The notes under the pieces were generated by a model. That model made no database searches. It was not told the origin of the DNA and saw nothing but the letters and a program-made list of their open reading frames with translations. This document shows positions 4,190 through 27,075 of a DNA stretch of 29,984 nt, in pieces. The first letter of the stretch is position 1, and the number at the start of each line of letters is the position of its first letter. A program made the position numbers and the translations under genes. This DNA is from a virus, in the IMG/VR virus record IMGVR_UViG_3300032893_000222, positions 1 through 29,984 of that record, one strand, 5' to 3'.

Positions 4190-5031
4190 TAGGGTTGATT
4201 AGGCTGTGGCTTAGGCTTATTCTTCGAGCCTTTTGGACGGCCTTTAATACCCTTCCTACTTCCTGGCGCAGGTTGATTTCCCTCTTGGGCGGGAGTGTTT
4301 GCACCCTCAGCTTCAGGGGCCGGAGCAACGGCTGGTTGATTGGCGGTACCGGCATAAGGGTCGAATAAAACTCCGGCTTTCATCATCTTTTGGGCTGTTG
4401 CAGAATCAACTACAACAATATTGCCTTCTTTGTTACGAAAGGCGGCTTTACGCTTATTACCTTCAAAGAACTTATCAAACTCGTCCTTTTGAATGGGCTT
4501 TACTGAATTTGCTGGTCTTGCGGAATCCATAGACTTCTCCAATTCTTTGGCGTTTTTTGTAGTAATCAGTTGTTTTCCAACCACATACTTACCTTTTTGA
4601 ACGCCATCATGTGCCGTATTTGAATTACGAACACGTTTTAATTTACCCTTGGCTGTATCAGACAAGGCCTTGACTTGAATTTCTTTTTGAATATAGGCTT
4701 CTGGACGCTCACCATCCGTCCAAAGTTCACGGAAACCTTTATAATTTACGACCTTATTTCCATCCTTATCTTCACTTTGAATGTAAGGAACACACGTGCA
4801 GATAATTGGAATCGTAAATGTTTGTGTGCCAATCATCTTTTGAACGGCACTTTTTAACCCATTCTTGCAATTTTTGCAACTCTTATCACGGTGGTCAAAC
4901 AGAAATTTATCGAATTCGATAACACTGCCTGTACCTACCGGAATGGCGTATTTACGTTCGGTCGATTTATCCTTTTCTTTATTTGCGGCTTTCGCCTTAG
5001 CTTCTTTTGTCGAAGGGTCGAACATCTTCAT
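4189..5031 (-). CDS. Hypothetical protein with Cys cluster and AT-hook-like tail
   Basis: This 280-residue protein is not recognised. The first 30 residues are Lys/Ala-rich and probably disordered. A CxxC at 52/55 and a CxC at 78/80 could bind one zinc. The middle is basic and the last 60 residues are Pro/Ala-rich, ending in GRPKGSKNKPK, the minor-groove-binding AT-hook-type motif seen in many phage DNA-binding proteins. Both ends overlap neighbours as TAATG, so it is translated with the 117-aa gene before it and the TerS-like gene after it. A role in DNA packaging or late-gene control fits the position, as inference. Confidence 0.8.
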   Translation of the reverse strand: MKMFDPSTKEAKAKAANKEKDKSTERKYAIPVGTGSVIEFDKFLFDHRDKSCKNCKNGLKSAVQKMIGTQTFTIPIICTCVPYIQSEDKDGNKVVNYKGFRELWTDGERPEAYIQKEIQVKALSDTAKGKLKRVRNSNTAHDGVQKGKYVVGKQLITTKNAKELEKSMDSARPANSVKPIQKDEFDKFFEGNKRKAAFRNKEGNIVVVDSATAQKMMKAGVLFDPYAGTANQPAVAPAPEAEGANTPAQEGNQPAPGSRKGIKGRPKGSKNKPKPQPNQP

Positions 5032-6901: not shown

Positions 6902-7515
6902 TATCGAATCCTATTGAATACTGTTGAGTTTCCAGACTTAGAAAGTTCATATCCATGTGTTGCCACATCTAAAAATGTACTTTGATGTGTCACAAGAAGG
7001 AATTTCATGTTTAATTGGGCCGAAAGAGACTTCAGTAGAGCGGCCACTTTGGGCACATATTCCTCACTTACGTGGGCAAAACTTTCATCCATGAACATAA
7101 CTGATTGGCGTCTTGGACGAATAGAGGCCAACATCAAAGCTTTCAATACAAAGGCCACTACGTCAACAATCCCACCACCACAGCTCTCCATGATATCCAA
7201 TTCCATACCGTCCGGCTTAATTAGCTTGAACTTGGTTAGAACCCTCTTTTCAGAGGACACTTCAATTGAGAATTTATAGTCAAAGCCAAATACTTCATTG
7301 ATAGCCATAGTAATGACACGCTCAAACATCTCGATGGTAGCTTTCTTCTTCTGTTCGCCTATTCGTTTCATTGTTTCGCCAGCGATAGATAAGATTTGAA
7401 GTTGGTCTGTAACAGACTCTAAATCAGCCCGTGTTTTATCCAAAAGCTCTTTATTGGCTTTAATGCCATATTGGAGATTAAGAATAGAACGCTCTAGCTG
7501 TTTCAGGTCTGTCAC
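6901..7515 (-). CDS. Rad50/SbcC-like ATPase, C-terminal lobe as a separate protein
   Basis: This 204-residue protein is the second half of an SMC-type ATPase. Residues 1-60 form a coiled coil. The signature is ESCGGG at 110-115, Walker B SVMFMDE at 138-144 with Glu144, and the H-loop LLVTHQ with His177. The 'GGG' version of the LSGGE signature is familiar in phage Rad50-like ATPases. There is no Walker A, so it must pair with the N-lobe protein encoded at 9784-10851 to form active sites. It starts with GTG 7515, overlapping the coiled-coil gene's stop as GTGA, with GGAG 7 nt upstream. With SbcD it would process double-strand ends for recombination-dependent replication. Confidence 0.85.
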   Translation of the reverse strand: MTDLKQLERSILNLQYGIKANKELLDKTRADLESVTDQLQILSIAGETMKRIGEQKKKATIEMFERVITMAINEVFGFDYKFSIEVSSEKRVLTKFKLIKPDGMELDIMESCGGGIVDVVAFVLKALMLASIRPRRQSVMFMDESFAHVSEEYVPKVAALLKSLSAQLNMKFLLVTHQSTFLDVATHGYELSKSGNSTVFNRIR

Positions 7516-7802
7516 AGAGTAACTCCGGTTGTGACTTTTCCAGCCACCTTATCTTCAAGGTCTTTGACCATACTTTCTACTTTAGTCAAAGATTCTCCAA
7601 ATTTTACTTCCAATTCTCCAATACTCTTTTCCTCTGCCTCAATCGCTAATTTAAGTTGGTCCGCATCTTTAATTCCAGCGTATTCAAGTTCTTTCAGAAT
7701 AGCTTTCTTCTTCTCGTCATTTTCCTTTTGCTTATATTTAAGGATTTCAATCTTTGATTGAAGAGATGTTAATCTTCCTTGTAAAAGGTCATTATTTCCC
7801 AT
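7512..7802 (-). CDS. 96-aa coiled-coil protein, probable Rad50 coil segment
   Basis: Nearly the whole chain is a heptad-type coiled coil rich in Glu/Lys (SLQSKIEILKYKQKENDEKK and ELEVKFGESLTKVESMVKDL). No cysteines, so no zinc hook. It lies directly before the Rad50 C-lobe gene and overlaps it by 4 nt (GTGA). Its coil plus the 60-residue coil of the C-lobe roughly equals the ascending coil of the N-lobe protein, which suggests it supplies the missing descending coil. The start is ATG 7802 (AGGAG 8 nt upstream), 1 nt after the nuclease stop, in preference to a TTG ten codons earlier. Function is inferred. Confidence 0.75.
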   Translation of the reverse strand: MGNNDLLQGRLTSLQSKIEILKYKQKENDEKKKAILKELEYAGIKDADQLKLAIEAEEKSIGELEVKFGESLTKVESMVKDLEDKVAGKVTTGVTL

Positions 7803-15804: not shown

Positions 15805-18018
15805 TTAAGAAAATGAAACTTTTAATCCTAAAGATTCAATATTGCTTACTAAAGAACGCTTTGGAAATACCTTAACTGGTGTAACTTCGCCCGTTTCTTC
15901 ATCTACGTCTTCCGGCTCCATTAAAGTAGACCCCGCCCTAATAAAAGTAGCACATTCACCTTTATTGTTCTTGAATAGTTTTTTTAGCTCTGGTCCAGTT
16001 TTAATTAATATCTCAGGGCTTCCTATTATTGTCATCCTACTACCCAACGGAATATTATCCAGTGTCATCCCAGGCTCATAGTCGATAACGTCTCCCCAGC
16101 TATACCCAATGGCGGCATCAGCCACAATATCAACAAAACCATCAATTTTAAGTTCCATGCATTTTTTAATAAGTTCTACAGCTTCTGAAACAGGGATATT
16201 TTCATTCACTTCGAACAACAATTCATCATGTACTTGAAGCACCATATGAATATCTTTATCCTTAAGATGCTTATCCAAACGAATCATCGCAATCTTTAAA
16301 ATATCGGCGGCAGTTCCTTGAATTTTAGTATTAACAGCCTTACGTAAATCTTCCCCAATCTTTCCCCTATTCTCTTTTTCGTGTGGGTTTAGATAAAGAT
16401 TAACAAGATTTCGTTTGCGGCCATATTCTGTTTTCACAAACTTATTCTTACGGGCTTCATCTTTAATCTTATTAATCCAGGGCAAGACTCCTGGAATTTT
16501 TTTGAAATAATCATTCAACATATCTTCGGCTTCTTGTTCGGAACATTTAAGATTATTCGCTAAACTAATAGTTCCCATTCCATAGATAAGTCCGAAATTA
16601 AGCGTCTTGCCTTTATTTCTTAAATCTTTATTCACTTTATCGAGTGGGACTCCGAACAAAATTGAGGCTGTACCGGCATGAACATCTACACCATCTTTGA
16701 ACATTTTTAATAGATGCTGGTCTTTGCACATACTGGCCAAAAGACGATATTCAATCATTGAATAGTCGAAATCTAGGAGGTAATATCCTTTGTCGGCAAC
16801 GAATGCTTTACGAAGAACTGCGCTATTTTCGGCATCATCCTTAGCCTTGGGAATCTGTTGTAAATTGGGATGGTCCGATGTAAATCTTCCAGTAACTGCT
16901 CCGTAGGGATTAAGGTGCGTGTGTATGTGCCCATCGGACCCAAGATTCGATGAAAGCTTTCCAAGAAAGGCGGTGAGAAGTTTTTGGTTTTTCTTGTATT
17001 TGACAATGTAAGTAATAATTGGATGGTCGAGTTTAGCGAGGGCGTGTTTATCTGTACTTGGCGTATCACCATCTTCATTAGTCATTACTCCTACTGGAAG
17101 TCCTAACTTTTCATATAAAATTTTACCTAGTTGCTGTGGACTTCCGATATTAAATTGTTCTCCGGCAATCTCATAAATTTTTTGCTGGAGTTCTTTATTT
17201 TCTTCCAAAACTTTTTCTTTGGCCTGATTTAACGCATCTACATCAATTTTAATTCCCCGATATTCAATTTCAGCTACAATCGGAAGAAGGCGTGTTTCCA
17301 TATCATAAATAACACCCGTCATTTCTGTTTTCGCAAGATAGGCATTATAGAGCTTGATAGTAGCGTAAGCATCGGTGGCCGCATAAAGTTTACCAAGTTC
17401 TAATGGAGCTAGGGCAAAACTATAAACACCTTTACCAAGAATATCTTCAAGATTAAGCATATCAAGCCCAAACTCTTGCCTAAAAAGGTCTTTCAAAGTT
17501 CCATGTTTCAACTTTAAAAATTTGGCCTCATCGACACCGTCCAAAGGAAAAAGCTTCATAACTTGAACATCTGCGAGACATTTAGCGGTTATTCCAACGG
17601 CTCTTAAAAATTTATAGTCGAACCGGAAATTATAATATACGCAAGGTTGCTCGATAAGTGGTTTTAAAATGGAAAGAGTGACATGTGGAGGGATATTAAC
17701 TTTAGCTACATCAGATAAAATGGGGACATAAAAGGATACTGGCTCGTCATTTTCTACCCAGGCTACAGAAACGCCTACTAATTTATCAGTGCCGACCAAT
17801 AATCCAGTGGTTTCAGTGTCAACAGCTTTTGGAGTTGGGCATGCCAAGGCCCTATCAACAAAAGAACGTAATTCTGCTTCATTGTTTACGCAATATAATT
17901 TAGATGTATAAAGCCAATCAATAATTTTAGTCTTCTTGGCTTGCTCTAATCTACTTGTCAGTAGTTCCCCTTGGAACAAATCGACAATATCACCAGAGGC
18001 GGCTTTTTTTAAAACCAT
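15805..18018 (-). CDS. polA: Family A DNA polymerase with 3'-5' exonuclease
   Basis: The phage replicative polymerase, 737 residues. Exonuclease motifs: DTETTG (Asp67, Glu69), NFRFD (Asn130, Asp134), YAATD (Tyr212, Asp216). Polymerase motif A LDFDYSMIEYR (around 415-425); O-helix KGKTLNFGLIYG (Lys471, Phe475, Tyr479); motif C HDE at 597-599. No 5'-nuclease domain, as usual for phages. After the palm there is an unusual extra region of about 87 residues (650-737). The Phe in the O-helix predicts discrimination against dideoxynucleotides. ATG 18018 has a weak AGGG upstream. A TATAAATA box lies 26 nt upstream, inside the preceding small gene. Confidence 0.95.
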   Translation of the reverse strand: MVLKKAASGDIVDLFQGELLTSRLEQAKKTKIIDWLYTSKLYCVNNEAELRSFVDRALACPTPKAVDTETTGLLVGTDKLVGVSVAWVENDEPVSFYVPILSDVAKVNIPPHVTLSILKPLIEQPCVYYNFRFDYKFLRAVGITAKCLADVQVMKLFPLDGVDEAKFLKLKHGTLKDLFRQEFGLDMLNLEDILGKGVYSFALAPLELGKLYAATDAYATIKLYNAYLAKTEMTGVIYDMETRLLPIVAEIEYRGIKIDVDALNQAKEKVLEENKELQQKIYEIAGEQFNIGSPQQLGKILYEKLGLPVGVMTNEDGDTPSTDKHALAKLDHPIITYIVKYKKNQKLLTAFLGKLSSNLGSDGHIHTHLNPYGAVTGRFTSDHPNLQQIPKAKDDAENSAVLRKAFVADKGYYLLDFDYSMIEYRLLASMCKDQHLLKMFKDGVDVHAGTASILFGVPLDKVNKDLRNKGKTLNFGLIYGMGTISLANNLKCSEQEAEDMLNDYFKKIPGVLPWINKIKDEARKNKFVKTEYGRKRNLVNLYLNPHEKENRGKIGEDLRKAVNTKIQGTAADILKIAMIRLDKHLKDKDIHMVLQVHDELLFEVNENIPVSEAVELIKKCMELKIDGFVDIVADAAIGYSWGDVIDYEPGMTLDNIPLGSRMTIIGSPEILIKTGPELKKLFKNNKGECATFIRAGSTLMEPEDVDEETGEVTPVKVFPKRSLVSNIESLGLKVSFS

Positions 18019-23635: not shown

Positions 23636-23719
23636 TTAAAGGTGTAGAGCTACCTGCTTAAATCGATATTTAACAACACCCCTAAAAATTTTGTTTAGTT
23701 TAGAAAATAAATTATTCAT
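23636..23719 (-). CDS. Possible 27-aa microprotein
   Basis: ATG 23719 overlaps the HAD phosphatase's end and has GAAGG 6 nt upstream. The 27-residue product is basic and mildly amphipathic (NNLFSKLNKIFRGVVKYRF). The start context GGCCAAACATG is identical to that of the next gene at 23622, which argues that both are used. It may instead be a translation leader for that gene. Very short, so tentative. Confidence 0.42.
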   Translation of the reverse strand: MNNLFSKLNKIFRGVVKYRFKQVALHL

Positions 23720-24092
23720 GTTTGGCCTTCTTTTCTTTCTTTTGCCAATGTTGGAAATCAGCGATTTGTTGGAGTGTTTTTGACCAATCACCTTCAAAAC
23801 GAATACAATTATCGTCGATGATTAAACCGATTGGTTTTGTTATTTGAATTTTATCGTAATATAAGTTGTGCTTTTCCATATAAGCTTCAATACCTTTGGC
23901 ACCTTCTTCCGTTTCAGCTCGAACAGAAAAAATAATAATTCTGAAACTATTTTTTAAAATGTCTAAGGCTTTTTTTACATCTTTAGTAGGAGGGTCTGGA
24001 ATATTATCAGGACCTTGCCATCCAGAGGCGTATGTCTGTATCGTGCCGTCAAAATCGACAACTAAATTAGGTTTGCGGGATTTCTTAGGCAT
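23712..24092 (-). CDS. HAD-superfamily phosphatase
   Basis: This 126-residue protein has the HAD core: Asp13 and Asp15 in VVDFDGTI (nucleophile and acid), a Ser in IIIFSVRAE (motif II), and IIDDN (motif IV metal ligands). A Lys sits before motif IV (QITKPIG). No cap domain, so it would act on accessible substrates such as nucleotides or polynucleotide ends, but the substrate is unknown. It has GGAAAG upstream and lies just after a long structured noncoding stretch. Confidence 0.82.
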   Translation of the reverse strand: MPKKSRKPNLVVDFDGTIQTYASGWQGPDNIPDPPTKDVKKALDILKNSFRIIIFSVRAETEEGAKGIEAYMEKHNLYYDKIQITKPIGLIIDDNCIRFEGDWSKTLQQIADFQHWQKKEKKAKHE

Positions 24093-24096
24093 ATAG

Positions 24097-24258
24097 ACTT
24101 TCCGTTTGGAGTGTATAGAACCCCAAAATTTAATTCTAAAAACTGCGTGGAATTAAAGCGGAAAGTGTCCAACAAGAGAGCCGTTCTACAAATATTAATT
24201 TGTAGTTGACCCGACTCTCTATGTGGACAGGAGACTACTTACTGGGCTGAGTAAGTAG
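24097..24258 (-). ncRNA. Multi-stem structured noncoding element (candidate)
   Basis: The 167-nt gap between the DUF932-like and HAD genes contains five perfect or near-perfect stems. P4: CTACTTACT/AGTAAGTAG (24235-24243 / 24250-24258). P3: nested arms TGTCCA/TGGACA (24166-24171 / 24224-24229), nine pairs 24175-24183 / 24212-24220, and CTACAAAT/ATTTGTAG (24186-24193 / 24198-24205). P1: ACTTTCCG/CGGAAAGT (24097-24104 / 24159-24166). P2 inside P1: TTTAATTC/GAATTAAA (24129-24136 / 24150-24157). The nine-pair arm is fully pairable only on the minus-strand RNA (G-U instead of C-A), the direction of transcription here. No reading frame covers it. Function unknown. Confidence 0.5.
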
Positions 24259-24259
24259 G

Positions 24260-25246
24260 TTAGTTCTTCACGGTTCCAAATTCGAGAAGAAGCTCACCAG
24301 CACTCTTCTCAAGAAGTTGGGCGGTAAACATATTGACCGAATCCCTTGCAGTTTCCGTAACAGTGTTATAAATATCATACACGGAAACTTGGGAACCCCG
24401 CTCAAGAATATCTTCTTCCATTTTGCGGAGAACTTCGGATACTTTACGACCACCGGCAACTTCACTTAGTTTATTCTTGACTTTGATAAAATTGGAAGCG
24501 TCAACTTTCTTGCCTTCCAATCGAATCAAGAACTCACTATCGATTTTGCTCATCTTGTCAAGAATACGGGCGTAGCTATCATCGAACATATTCCACACCG
24601 TCTCCTGATTTATGTTCTTCTGCAAGAAAGACACGCCCCCACCTAGGGAGGTGGGGAGGATAGTGCCGTTCGTGCATACCAAACGATACAGATAAGCATT
24701 TGCACTTAAACCGTATAAATTGGTGTCGCTTGTTTCTAAGGACACACCAATCTTGGAAATGTCTCCAACTTTTGAGGCTTTAACTTCACCGTGAGAGGTC
24801 AACTGAATCGTGACATTATCGCCATCGTACTGCATACGGGCCGGAATCAACCCGGCTTCTTTTGCAGTTTCGAGGCGCTTTACCAAATCGATAGAATCCA
24901 AAGGGATATAGGATGGGCTGAGAATCGCACGAACTTCATCATCTTGTGTGCGAACCAAAACTTCAAAGTCACCGTAAGTCTTACAAAGGCGATTGACAGA
25001 ATCATAAAAAAGGTCATTCGGGATTGAAGCGGCGTAACTTCCCGGCATTTTAATTTGATTGAGTAAACCCTTCATGCCATTCTGCCGAACAGCATAAGGC
25101 TTGCCCTGAATAAACATGCGGTCATCTTTGAGAGAGATATCCCCGATAAGGACATTCATGTCCTCGTTCTTGTGAGAATTTACCAGAGTATTTAGTTCAT
25201 CGATAGTTCCCGGACGTTTTGTTTCTGGCAAAACAATTTTAATCAT
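24260..25246 (-). CDS. DUF932-like protein
   Basis: The 328-residue protein shows the DUF932 pattern found in phage and plasmid proteins: an N-terminal targeting half, VRAILSPSYIPLDSIDLVKRL in the middle, LTSHGEV, and LYRLVCTNGTILPTS (the 'lyR.vCtNG' signature). DUF932 proteins are linked to ssDNA or recombination contexts, but their activity is not settled. The ATG has GAGG 6 nt upstream. It is followed on the transcript by the structured element at 24.1-24.26 kb. Confidence 0.7.
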   Translation of the reverse strand: MIKIVLPETKRPGTIDELNTLVNSHKNEDMNVLIGDISLKDDRMFIQGKPYAVRQNGMKGLLNQIKMPGSYAASIPNDLFYDSVNRLCKTYGDFEVLVRTQDDEVRAILSPSYIPLDSIDLVKRLETAKEAGLIPARMQYDGDNVTIQLTSHGEVKASKVGDISKIGVSLETSDTNLYGLSANAYLYRLVCTNGTILPTSLGGGVSFLQKNINQETVWNMFDDSYARILDKMSKIDSEFLIRLEGKKVDASNFIKVKNKLSEVAGGRKVSEVLRKMEEDILERGSQVSVYDIYNTVTETARDSVNMFTAQLLEKSAGELLLEFGTVKN

Positions 25247-25290
25247 CTCTGTCCTCTTTTCTTAAAATAGTACCGCAGGGCTTGTTTTGC

Positions 25291-25358
25291 GAGGCTTAGG
25301 GACTCGAACCCCACCTCCCGCTTAATGGCGGGTGTTCTACCACTTAAACTAGAGCCTC
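25291..25358 (-). tRNA. Aberrant tRNA-like gene, anticodon unclear
   Basis: About 68 nt. Acceptor GAGGCT/AGCCTC (six pairs), D-arm GTTTAAGTGGTAGAAC, a GC-rich anticodon stem CCCGC/GCGGG, and a normal T-loop TTCGAGT with a five-pair stem including one G-U. But the anticodon loop has six bases (CATTAA), position 33 is not U in the standard register, the variable loop is about three bases, and no CCA is encoded. Readings UUA or UAA are possible. It may be decayed or a tRNA mimic. It lies behind a sigma70-like promoter. Confidence 0.55.
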
Positions 25359-25427: not shown

Positions 25428-25457
25428 AATATACTCGAAATTATTGTTAAAGTCAAC
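25428..25457 (-). promoter_or_regulatory. Sigma70-like promoter upstream of the tRNA-like and DUF932 genes
   Basis: Minus strand TTGACT (25457-25452), 18-nt spacer, TATATT (25433-25428); each hexamer matches the bacterial consensus at 5 of 6. It starts 3 nt after the stop of the ROS/MucR-like gene and faces the tRNA-like gene about 70 nt downstream. Confidence 0.65.
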
Positions 25458-26462: not shown

Positions 26463-26491
26463 GTTATACTCTTAAAGAGTTAGCCCTTCAA
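26463..26491 (-). promoter_or_regulatory. Sigma70-like promoter with palindromic spacer
   Basis: Minus strand TTGAAG (26491-26486), exactly 17 nt, TATAAC (26468-26463). The spacer holds ACTCTTTAAGAGT, an inverted repeat that could bind a regulator, and the -35 is in the last codons of the winged-helix gene. About 64 nt upstream of the 53-aa gene's ATG. Confidence 0.55.
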
Positions 26492-26876
26492 TCTCAGATT
26501 GAGGCATTTTATGTGTATTTTTTTCATTTTGACTTTTTTTATCGTCGTACCTATCTCTAAAAGAGCTTCTATTCTGATATTTTATCCAGCCTGTTATCAC
26601 ATAATAGCCATCTTCTCTTGAAATAAGGCCATTTTCCAATAAAATATTAAAAGAATCAATAGATATTCTAACAGATTTACAGATATCCTCGGCAGTACAA
26701 GGATTTCCGAGAGTGTCTATTAGAGAACCATGCCCATGACAAGCTTCGGCAAAACAAAGCACTCTAAGAAAAGCTAATTCGGCGGCATCCCCTATTTTTT
26801 GTATTTTTTGGTCTTTTAACCATTGTTTTCCCCATATTTTGAACCATCCGCCCTTTTCTGCTGGCAATCTCGCCAT
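26472..26876 (-). CDS. Winged-helix replisome-organiser-like protein
   Basis: The 134-residue protein has 'GGWFKIWGKQWLKDQKIQKI', then AELAFLRVLCFAEACHGHGS and DGYYVITGWIKYQNRSSFRD. This is the layout of the DnaD/phage-replisome-organiser N-terminal winged helix ('w.k...........G...... dg...I.nw..yQ'). Such proteins bind origins and recruit the helicase loader. AGGAG lies 5 nt before the ATG. It stands immediately next to the repeat-rich candidate origin at 26.9-27.06 kb, which supports the call. The C-terminal organiser domain is missing, so a simple regulator remains possible. Confidence 0.62.
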   Translation of the reverse strand: MARLPAEKGGWFKIWGKQWLKDQKIQKIGDAAELAFLRVLCFAEACHGHGSLIDTLGNPCTAEDICKSVRISIDSFNILLENGLISREDGYYVITGWIKYQNRSSFRDRYDDKKSQNEKNTHKMPQSEIEGLTL

Positions 26877-26904
26877 AAAAACTCCTAAAATCTATATTTT
26901 AAAG

Positions 26905-26914
26905 TATTATACAC
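26905..26914 (-). promoter_or_regulatory. GTGTATAATA promoter-like box C
   Basis: The decamer GTGTATAATA matches boxes A and B and lies 29 nt upstream of the winged-helix gene's ATG, in AT-rich DNA beside the candidate origin. No -35. Confidence 0.5.
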
Positions 26915-26936
26915 GAATCAATTGATTAATTATTAA

Positions 26937-27075
26937 AAATTAATTAAAAACTAGTTTTTTTCTAGTTGTGTGCTTAGACTAAGACTTAGACTAAGACTCA
27001 GACTTAGACTAGTCTAAGCACGTAATTAGTTTTTTTCTAGTTACAAATTAATTAAAAACTAGTTTTTTTCTAGTT
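26937..27075. repeat. Repeat cluster: candidate replication origin
   Basis: Two identical 31-bp direct repeats (26937-26967 and 27045-27075), each with AACTAG-T7-CTAGTT, and a third partial copy of the T7-CTAGTT part at 27028-27042. Between them, a 12-bp perfect inverted repeat (26970-26981 / 27010-27021, arms GTGCTTAGACTA and its complement) encloses six hexamers CTNAGA (26973-27008). Flanked by AT-rich DNA (26912-26952). The last copy overlaps the end of the SNF2-type gene. Confidence 0.7.

Follow-up and report, generated by a model that had tools for sequence, protein, structure and literature searches.

Dense RNA structure between a DUF932-type and a HAD-like phage gene: a candidate cis-acting intercistronic mRNA element

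What is the role of the densely base-paired, noncoding stretch that separates two genes of virus record IMGVR_UViG_3300032893_000222? The record comprises 29,984 bases and was analysed whole, as the window; its long genes are encoded by the minus strand. The upstream gene (24260..25246, minus strand) encodes a diverged DUF932-type phage protein of 328 aa, which matches phrog_1362 at 5e-17. This protein has no Pfam match itself; by tblastn (2e-8) it matches orf50 of Faecalibacterium phage Roos, and the orf50 product scores above the Pfam cut-off for DUF932. The downstream gene (23712..24092, minus strand) encodes a HAD-like phosphatase/nucleotidase of 126 aa, which matches phrog_1238/phrog_23773, carries the motifs DFDGT, SVR and IDD and gives a weak match, under the cut-off, to NCBIfam TIGR01689 (EcbF-BcbF). 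The gap runs from the DUF932-type stop codon (24262-24260) to the HAD-like start codon (24092). The initial annotation described a densely paired noncoding stretch here, and its coordinates and stems are correct; it also held that no protein is encoded, and the ORFs that overlap the gap are indeed chance ORFs of 32-66 codons, with no protein of note.

Comparison with dinucleotide-shuffled controls, which had been proposed in advance, gave a clear answer. On the minus (coding) strand the gap (24093-24259, 167 nt) folds at -57.7 kcal/mol, with a z of -6.5 against 200 shuffles and -7.2 against 1000, none of which was as stable (0/1000). Samples of 20-100 shuffles give a higher figure (-8.5) than the -6.5 to -7.2 obtained from 200-1000, and the latter values were adopted. 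By fold z the gap ranks first among 271 minus-strand windows across the record, and the remaining intergenic gaps, at +0.8 to -2.9 on the same strand, come nowhere near 24093-24259; the earlier statement that this gap is more structured than the others is thus borne out. The plus strand gives a z of -5.3 to -5.9, and strand asymmetry is weak evidence because the whole-gap energies of the two strands differ by 1.4 kcal/mol only. The earlier observation that a mismatch becomes G-U solely on the minus strand is true of the nine-pair tier, and given this small difference it was overstated as a strand argument. Rfam 15 returned no match for the gap at the gathering cut-off; below it, only two eukaryotic or viral families appeared, on the plus strand and at chance level. 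The gap RNA is a real and unclassified structured element.

The fold is built from three units, which we call H1, H2 and 3WJ. H1 (24235..24258, minus strand) is the 9-bp hairpin that had been annotated; it is perfect, has a 6-nt loop and starts 1 nt past the DUF932-type stop codon. Its arms on the minus-strand RNA are CUACUUACU/AGUAAGUAG (24258-24235), its z is -4.4 with 1/1000 shuffles as stable, and it is followed on the 3′ side by UCUCC, with no U-run. H2 (24167..24228, minus strand) is an irregular hairpin of ~62 nt with a z of -7.1 (0/1000 shuffles). The initial annotation had recognised this three-tier stem-loop (24228-24167) and counted 23 bp; the tiers are 7+9+8, giving 24 bp, and the hairpin also has an asymmetric 6/2-nt internal loop, a UAAU loop and the 3′ flank ACUUUCC. 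Taken alone, H2 is 5.2 kcal/mol more stable on the coding (minus) strand than on the plus strand. Its anatomy, intercistronic, of about two helical turns and with an internal loop, is that of a T7 R1.1-type site, and H2 is therefore a candidate RNase III-type processing site. A likeness to loop A of the hairpin ribozyme was considered for the H2 internal loop (GGUCAA facing AGAA) and rejected, since the loop sizes differ and a loop B domain is absent. An intrinsic terminator in the gap was likewise rejected; the coding strand has no terminator-like combination of hairpin and U-run there. We note separately a 9-bp GC-rich hairpin with a weak T-rich tail within the DUF932-type gene (24636-24657, minus strand), which is terminator-like by pattern.

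The third unit, 3WJ (24097..24166, minus strand), lies next to the HAD-like gene and has a z of -4.1, with 2/1000 shuffles as stable. Its 8-bp closing stem (ACUUUCCG/CGGAAAGU) and inner 8-bp hairpin (UUUAAUUC/GAAUUAAA) had both been noticed earlier as an 8-bp stem and an internal 8-bp stem. A further 8-bp hairpin, UUUGGGGU/ACUCCAAA, had been missed, and its presence as a third helix makes the unit a three-way junction of three 8-bp helices. When the gap was folded with 100, 300 or 500 nt of flanking sequence, H1 and H2 were essentially unchanged in every fold; 3WJ was nearly whole with 300 nt and refolded with 100 and 500 nt. We therefore regard H1 and H2 as the firm parts of the element and 3WJ as provisional.

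The putative Shine-Dalgarno (SD) sequence of the HAD-like gene, GGAAAG, belongs to CGGAAAGU, the 3′ arm of the closing stem, and is the sole SD-like sequence seen ahead of this gene. It is weak, with a duplex energy of -3.5 kcal/mol with the anti-SD. With 150/150 or 250/150 nt of context the SD region is more paired than that of any other of 32 gene starts (mean unpaired 0.08-0.09); in a 60/60 nt context it falls outside the eight most paired of the 32, and the cost of opening the HAD start region ranks fourth among them. A lid placed by 3WJ over the ribosome-binding site (RBS) at the HAD start is plausible from these predicted folds and not exceptional. Elsewhere in the record, 7371-7546 comes second to the gap in structure on the minus strand (z -5.4 to -5.5 from 200-1000 shuffles). 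A long stem there joins the region of the GTG start at 7515 to coding sequence ~100 nt downstream, and this GTG start is the most closed gene start in the record.

One reading built on 3WJ is that the junction is a ligand-responsive leader of the HAD gene, either a riboswitch or a protein-binding operator. That the RBS stem closes the junction, and that in two context sizes no other SD of the window is as strongly paired, would suit such a role, but the junction fold has a z of only -4.1 and is not robust, and no known riboswitch family matched. In addition, at two other loci (L008 and L011) the distant HAD relative comes straight after another gene or overlaps it, which leaves no conserved leader. 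We consider a leader of this kind distinctly unlikely.

Whether the gap is transcribed as part of a longer message was judged from its surroundings. On the coding strand nothing promoter-like was found within the gap or immediately ahead of it, and nothing terminator-like in the gap or behind the element. From these results and the same-strand genes, an operon transcript that carries the gap is the most likely setting. Ahead of the run formed by a tRNA-like gene, the DUF932-type gene, the element and the HAD-like gene lies a promoter-like TTGACT-17-TATATT (25428..25456, minus strand). It matches the consensus at 10/12 positions and is weak, because promoter-like matches are no commoner in this region than in its shuffles. 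The tRNA-like gene (25289..25358, minus strand) is 43 nt ahead of the DUF932 start; ARAGORN reports it as tRNA-???, the Rfam tRNA model scores 38.5 bits (E 5e-7), and the anticodon loop, CAUUAA, has 6 nt. It is a possible processing site on the 5′ side of the DUF932 message. Further along the record, 26877-27058 is a candidate origin or operator: it is AT-rich in places and contains partly palindromic TTAGTCTAAG-like repeats in tandem. This stretch precedes a gene (26472-26876) that has a weak phage replisome-organiser or DnaD-like match.

The initial annotation had left three roles side by side, namely a noncoding RNA of the phage, an element for processing or stability, and a cluster of operators. 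An independent small RNA encoded between the two genes could act in trans as a regulator, decoy or mimic. A long dense fold that encodes no protein, with a tRNA-like gene nearby, would be in keeping with this, and the tRNA region of T4 yields small RNAs of unknown role (PMC3014915). Against it, the coding strand shows no promoter-like site inside the gap or shortly ahead of it and no U-run terminator behind it; one stem also overlaps the RBS of the HAD-like gene, and Rfam gave no match. An independent ncRNA is thus less likely than a cis-acting element, and we consider it unlikely.

The remaining alternative of the three is at the level of DNA, where the inverted repeats could serve as operator palindromes, as an attachment or resolution site, or as a replication or packaging signal. 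Inverted repeats that fold on both strands and the presence of replication genes within a few kb would both fit. However, the palindromes are unlike each other and are not repeated beyond chance, which disfavours a DNA operator cluster; furthermore GC skew keeps its sign throughout the window, and H2 is more stable by 5.2 kcal/mol on the RNA-sense strand. We judge a DNA-level element to be improbable. A DNA pattern made from H1 had a single match in IMG/VR, in a 143.8-kb contig; this was taken to be chance, since by our estimate about one match is expected. Of the three roles the evidence favours the processing or stability element, because the gap belongs to a same-strand operon and lacks promoter-like or terminator-like sites, because the SD lies in its last stem, and because DUF932 gaps elsewhere carry hammerheads or hairpins (below).

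Relatives of the element and of the phage were sought widely. No related DNA was present in 50,697 phage records. IMG/VR scans with the DUF932, HAD, DNA polymerase, DnaB-like and SNF2 proteins found no close relative, and yielded only two HAD stretches of 44% identity that lack a structured leader. A single-sequence covariance model of the element, run on 171 loci, recovered only itself and one 12-bit chance match, and the YRLVCTNGT motif of the window, searched as a pattern, had no match. No homologue of the element was found among the IMG/VR loci searched, the phage records or the DUF932 loci of bacterial genomes. Among the sequences searched, the phage of this record is an orphan.

A profile of the DUF932-type protein brought in distant loci, 80 of them viral and 80 from bacterial genomes. 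Past the stop codon of 83 non-redundant DUF932 genes the first 65 nt are more structured (mean z -1.57) than the corresponding stretch behind 605 other genes in these loci (mean z -0.88; p 0.009), the hairpins after DUF932 including some ordinary terminators. In 33/80 viral DUF932 loci a locus-derived model detected 45 type II hammerheads (E below 0.001), 18 of which match by construction because the model was made from them. Two hammerheads pass the gathering score of Rfam RF02276 in the 18 loci scanned by Rfam. All 45 lie on the DUF932 coding strand, with up to three per locus; by our placement 26 are directly before the DUF932 start, 8 are within ~230 nt past the stop and 11 are elsewhere in the loci. 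Examples on that strand are L054:3843-3918, L075:3605-3679 together with 4748-4820, and L086:4745-4818.

Sister loci of the hammerhead clade have instead a short hairpin without a U-run after the DUF932 stop, followed by an AAGG-type SD. The hairpin covaries in 17 loci (L018, L019, L020, L022, L026, L028, L033, L035, L044, L049, L055, L060, L062, L066, L069, L076 and L084): 119/119 cells pair, with double-sided changes in 4/7 pairs, as against an average of 81% paired cells in shuffled controls and at most 52% in slid ones. Because L086, which has a hammerhead, shares a downstream gene family with L035/L041, which have the hairpin, hammerhead and hairpin replace each other at one site. These results suggest a wider pattern in which the gaps around DUF932 genes hold hammerheads or covarying hairpins in a large IMG/VR phage clade, and since the clade's gaps are occupied in this way, structured RNA at the DUF932 locus may be selected for processing of the DUF932 message. 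Our literature search found no paper tying type II hammerheads to phage DUF932 genes. Clustered hammerheads flanking single phage genes are already known, and cleavage of long transcripts into mRNAs of gene length has been put forward as their role (PMC3088659). The pattern offers a defined gene at which the purpose of phage hammerheads can be tested, and the hammerheads near DUF932 genes may be worth more than the gap element itself. The DUF932 protein of the window is very far from the hammerhead and hairpin clade (end branch 7.7, at most 24% identity). As it forms a very long branch outside the clade, the parallel is one of position and no evidence of descent.

The equivalent position raises the question of whether the gap itself is a self-cleaving ribozyme of an undescribed class, cutting the operon transcript where distant DUF932 phages carry hammerheads. 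The occupation of the equivalent gap by type II hammerheads in the distant clade and the clustering of hammerheads around single phage genes (PMC3088659) speak for the idea, and ribozymes are known to include three-way junctions and hairpins with an internal loop. However, the gap lacks the hammerhead core, no Rfam family matches, and with a single sequence no conserved core of another ribozyme is recognisable. This possibility is very unlikely in our estimate. We hold a related proposal to be just as doubtful: that in this lineage an undescribed class of ribozyme or of ligand-sensing junction has taken over the job done by hammerheads around DUF932 genes of other phages. As for a type II hammerhead proper, a search of the gap with the hammerhead model R2 and filters off gave only a partial 9.4-bit match on the plus strand, and the candidate was rejected. 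The best R2 match of the whole record (16763-16810, plus strand, 18.3 bits), also rejected, is without a CUGANGA core.

Our preferred reading, to which we give a probability of about 0.5, is that the gap is a cis-acting intercistronic element of the mRNA that would run from the DUF932-type to the HAD-like gene. The SD pairing, the same-strand operon, a fold beyond that of shuffles, the robustness of H1 and H2 and the distant DUF932 gaps count for it; the weak SD, the refolding of 3WJ, the distance of the clade and the lack of a homologue in the searches count against it. In this mechanism a host double-strand-specific RNase, of the RNase III type, would cut H2 and so separate the DUF932-type and HAD messages. 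H1, placed right after the stop codon, would then protect the 3′ end of the DUF932 message against exonucleases. 3WJ might hold the HAD RBS shut, to be opened by processing, by refolding, or by a ligand or protein. The outcome would be expression of the DUF932-type and HAD-like genes at different levels or times. Each of the three separate roles, H1 as barrier, H2 as processing site and 3WJ as lid, is put forward tentatively. If this reading is right, the locus is one more case of a phage operon transcript cut into separately controlled messages by structured gaps.

How the element compares with known systems depends on the unit considered. What the RF02276 hammerheads have in common with the gap is structured coding-strand RNA that separates a DUF932 gene from its neighbour; the gap differs in having another fold, without a CUGANGA or GAAA core. 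For 3WJ the closest parallel is SD sequestration, which is established for the T4 genes e, soc, 49 and I-TevI (PMC3014915). There too an SD-like sequence lies in a helix just ahead of the start codon; in the gap this helix is the closing stem of a three-way junction and comes after two hairpins. In contrast to the T4-type RBS-sequestering structures, no late promoter-like start was identified within the gap structure. For H2 the comparison is with the RNase III site R1.1 of T7, which lies between genes 1.0 and 1.1 and forms a hairpin of 60 nt whose internal loop is asymmetric (4/5; PMC6121014). Like R1.1, H2 is an irregular hairpin some 60 nt long, has an asymmetric internal loop and is located between cistrons of a same-strand phage operon. 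The loops differ in size (6/2 in H2, 4/5 in R1.1) and no likeness in sequence is expected. Action of RNase III on H2 is suggested by resemblance. Taken together, the element probably adds to the known intercistronic RNA elements of phages.
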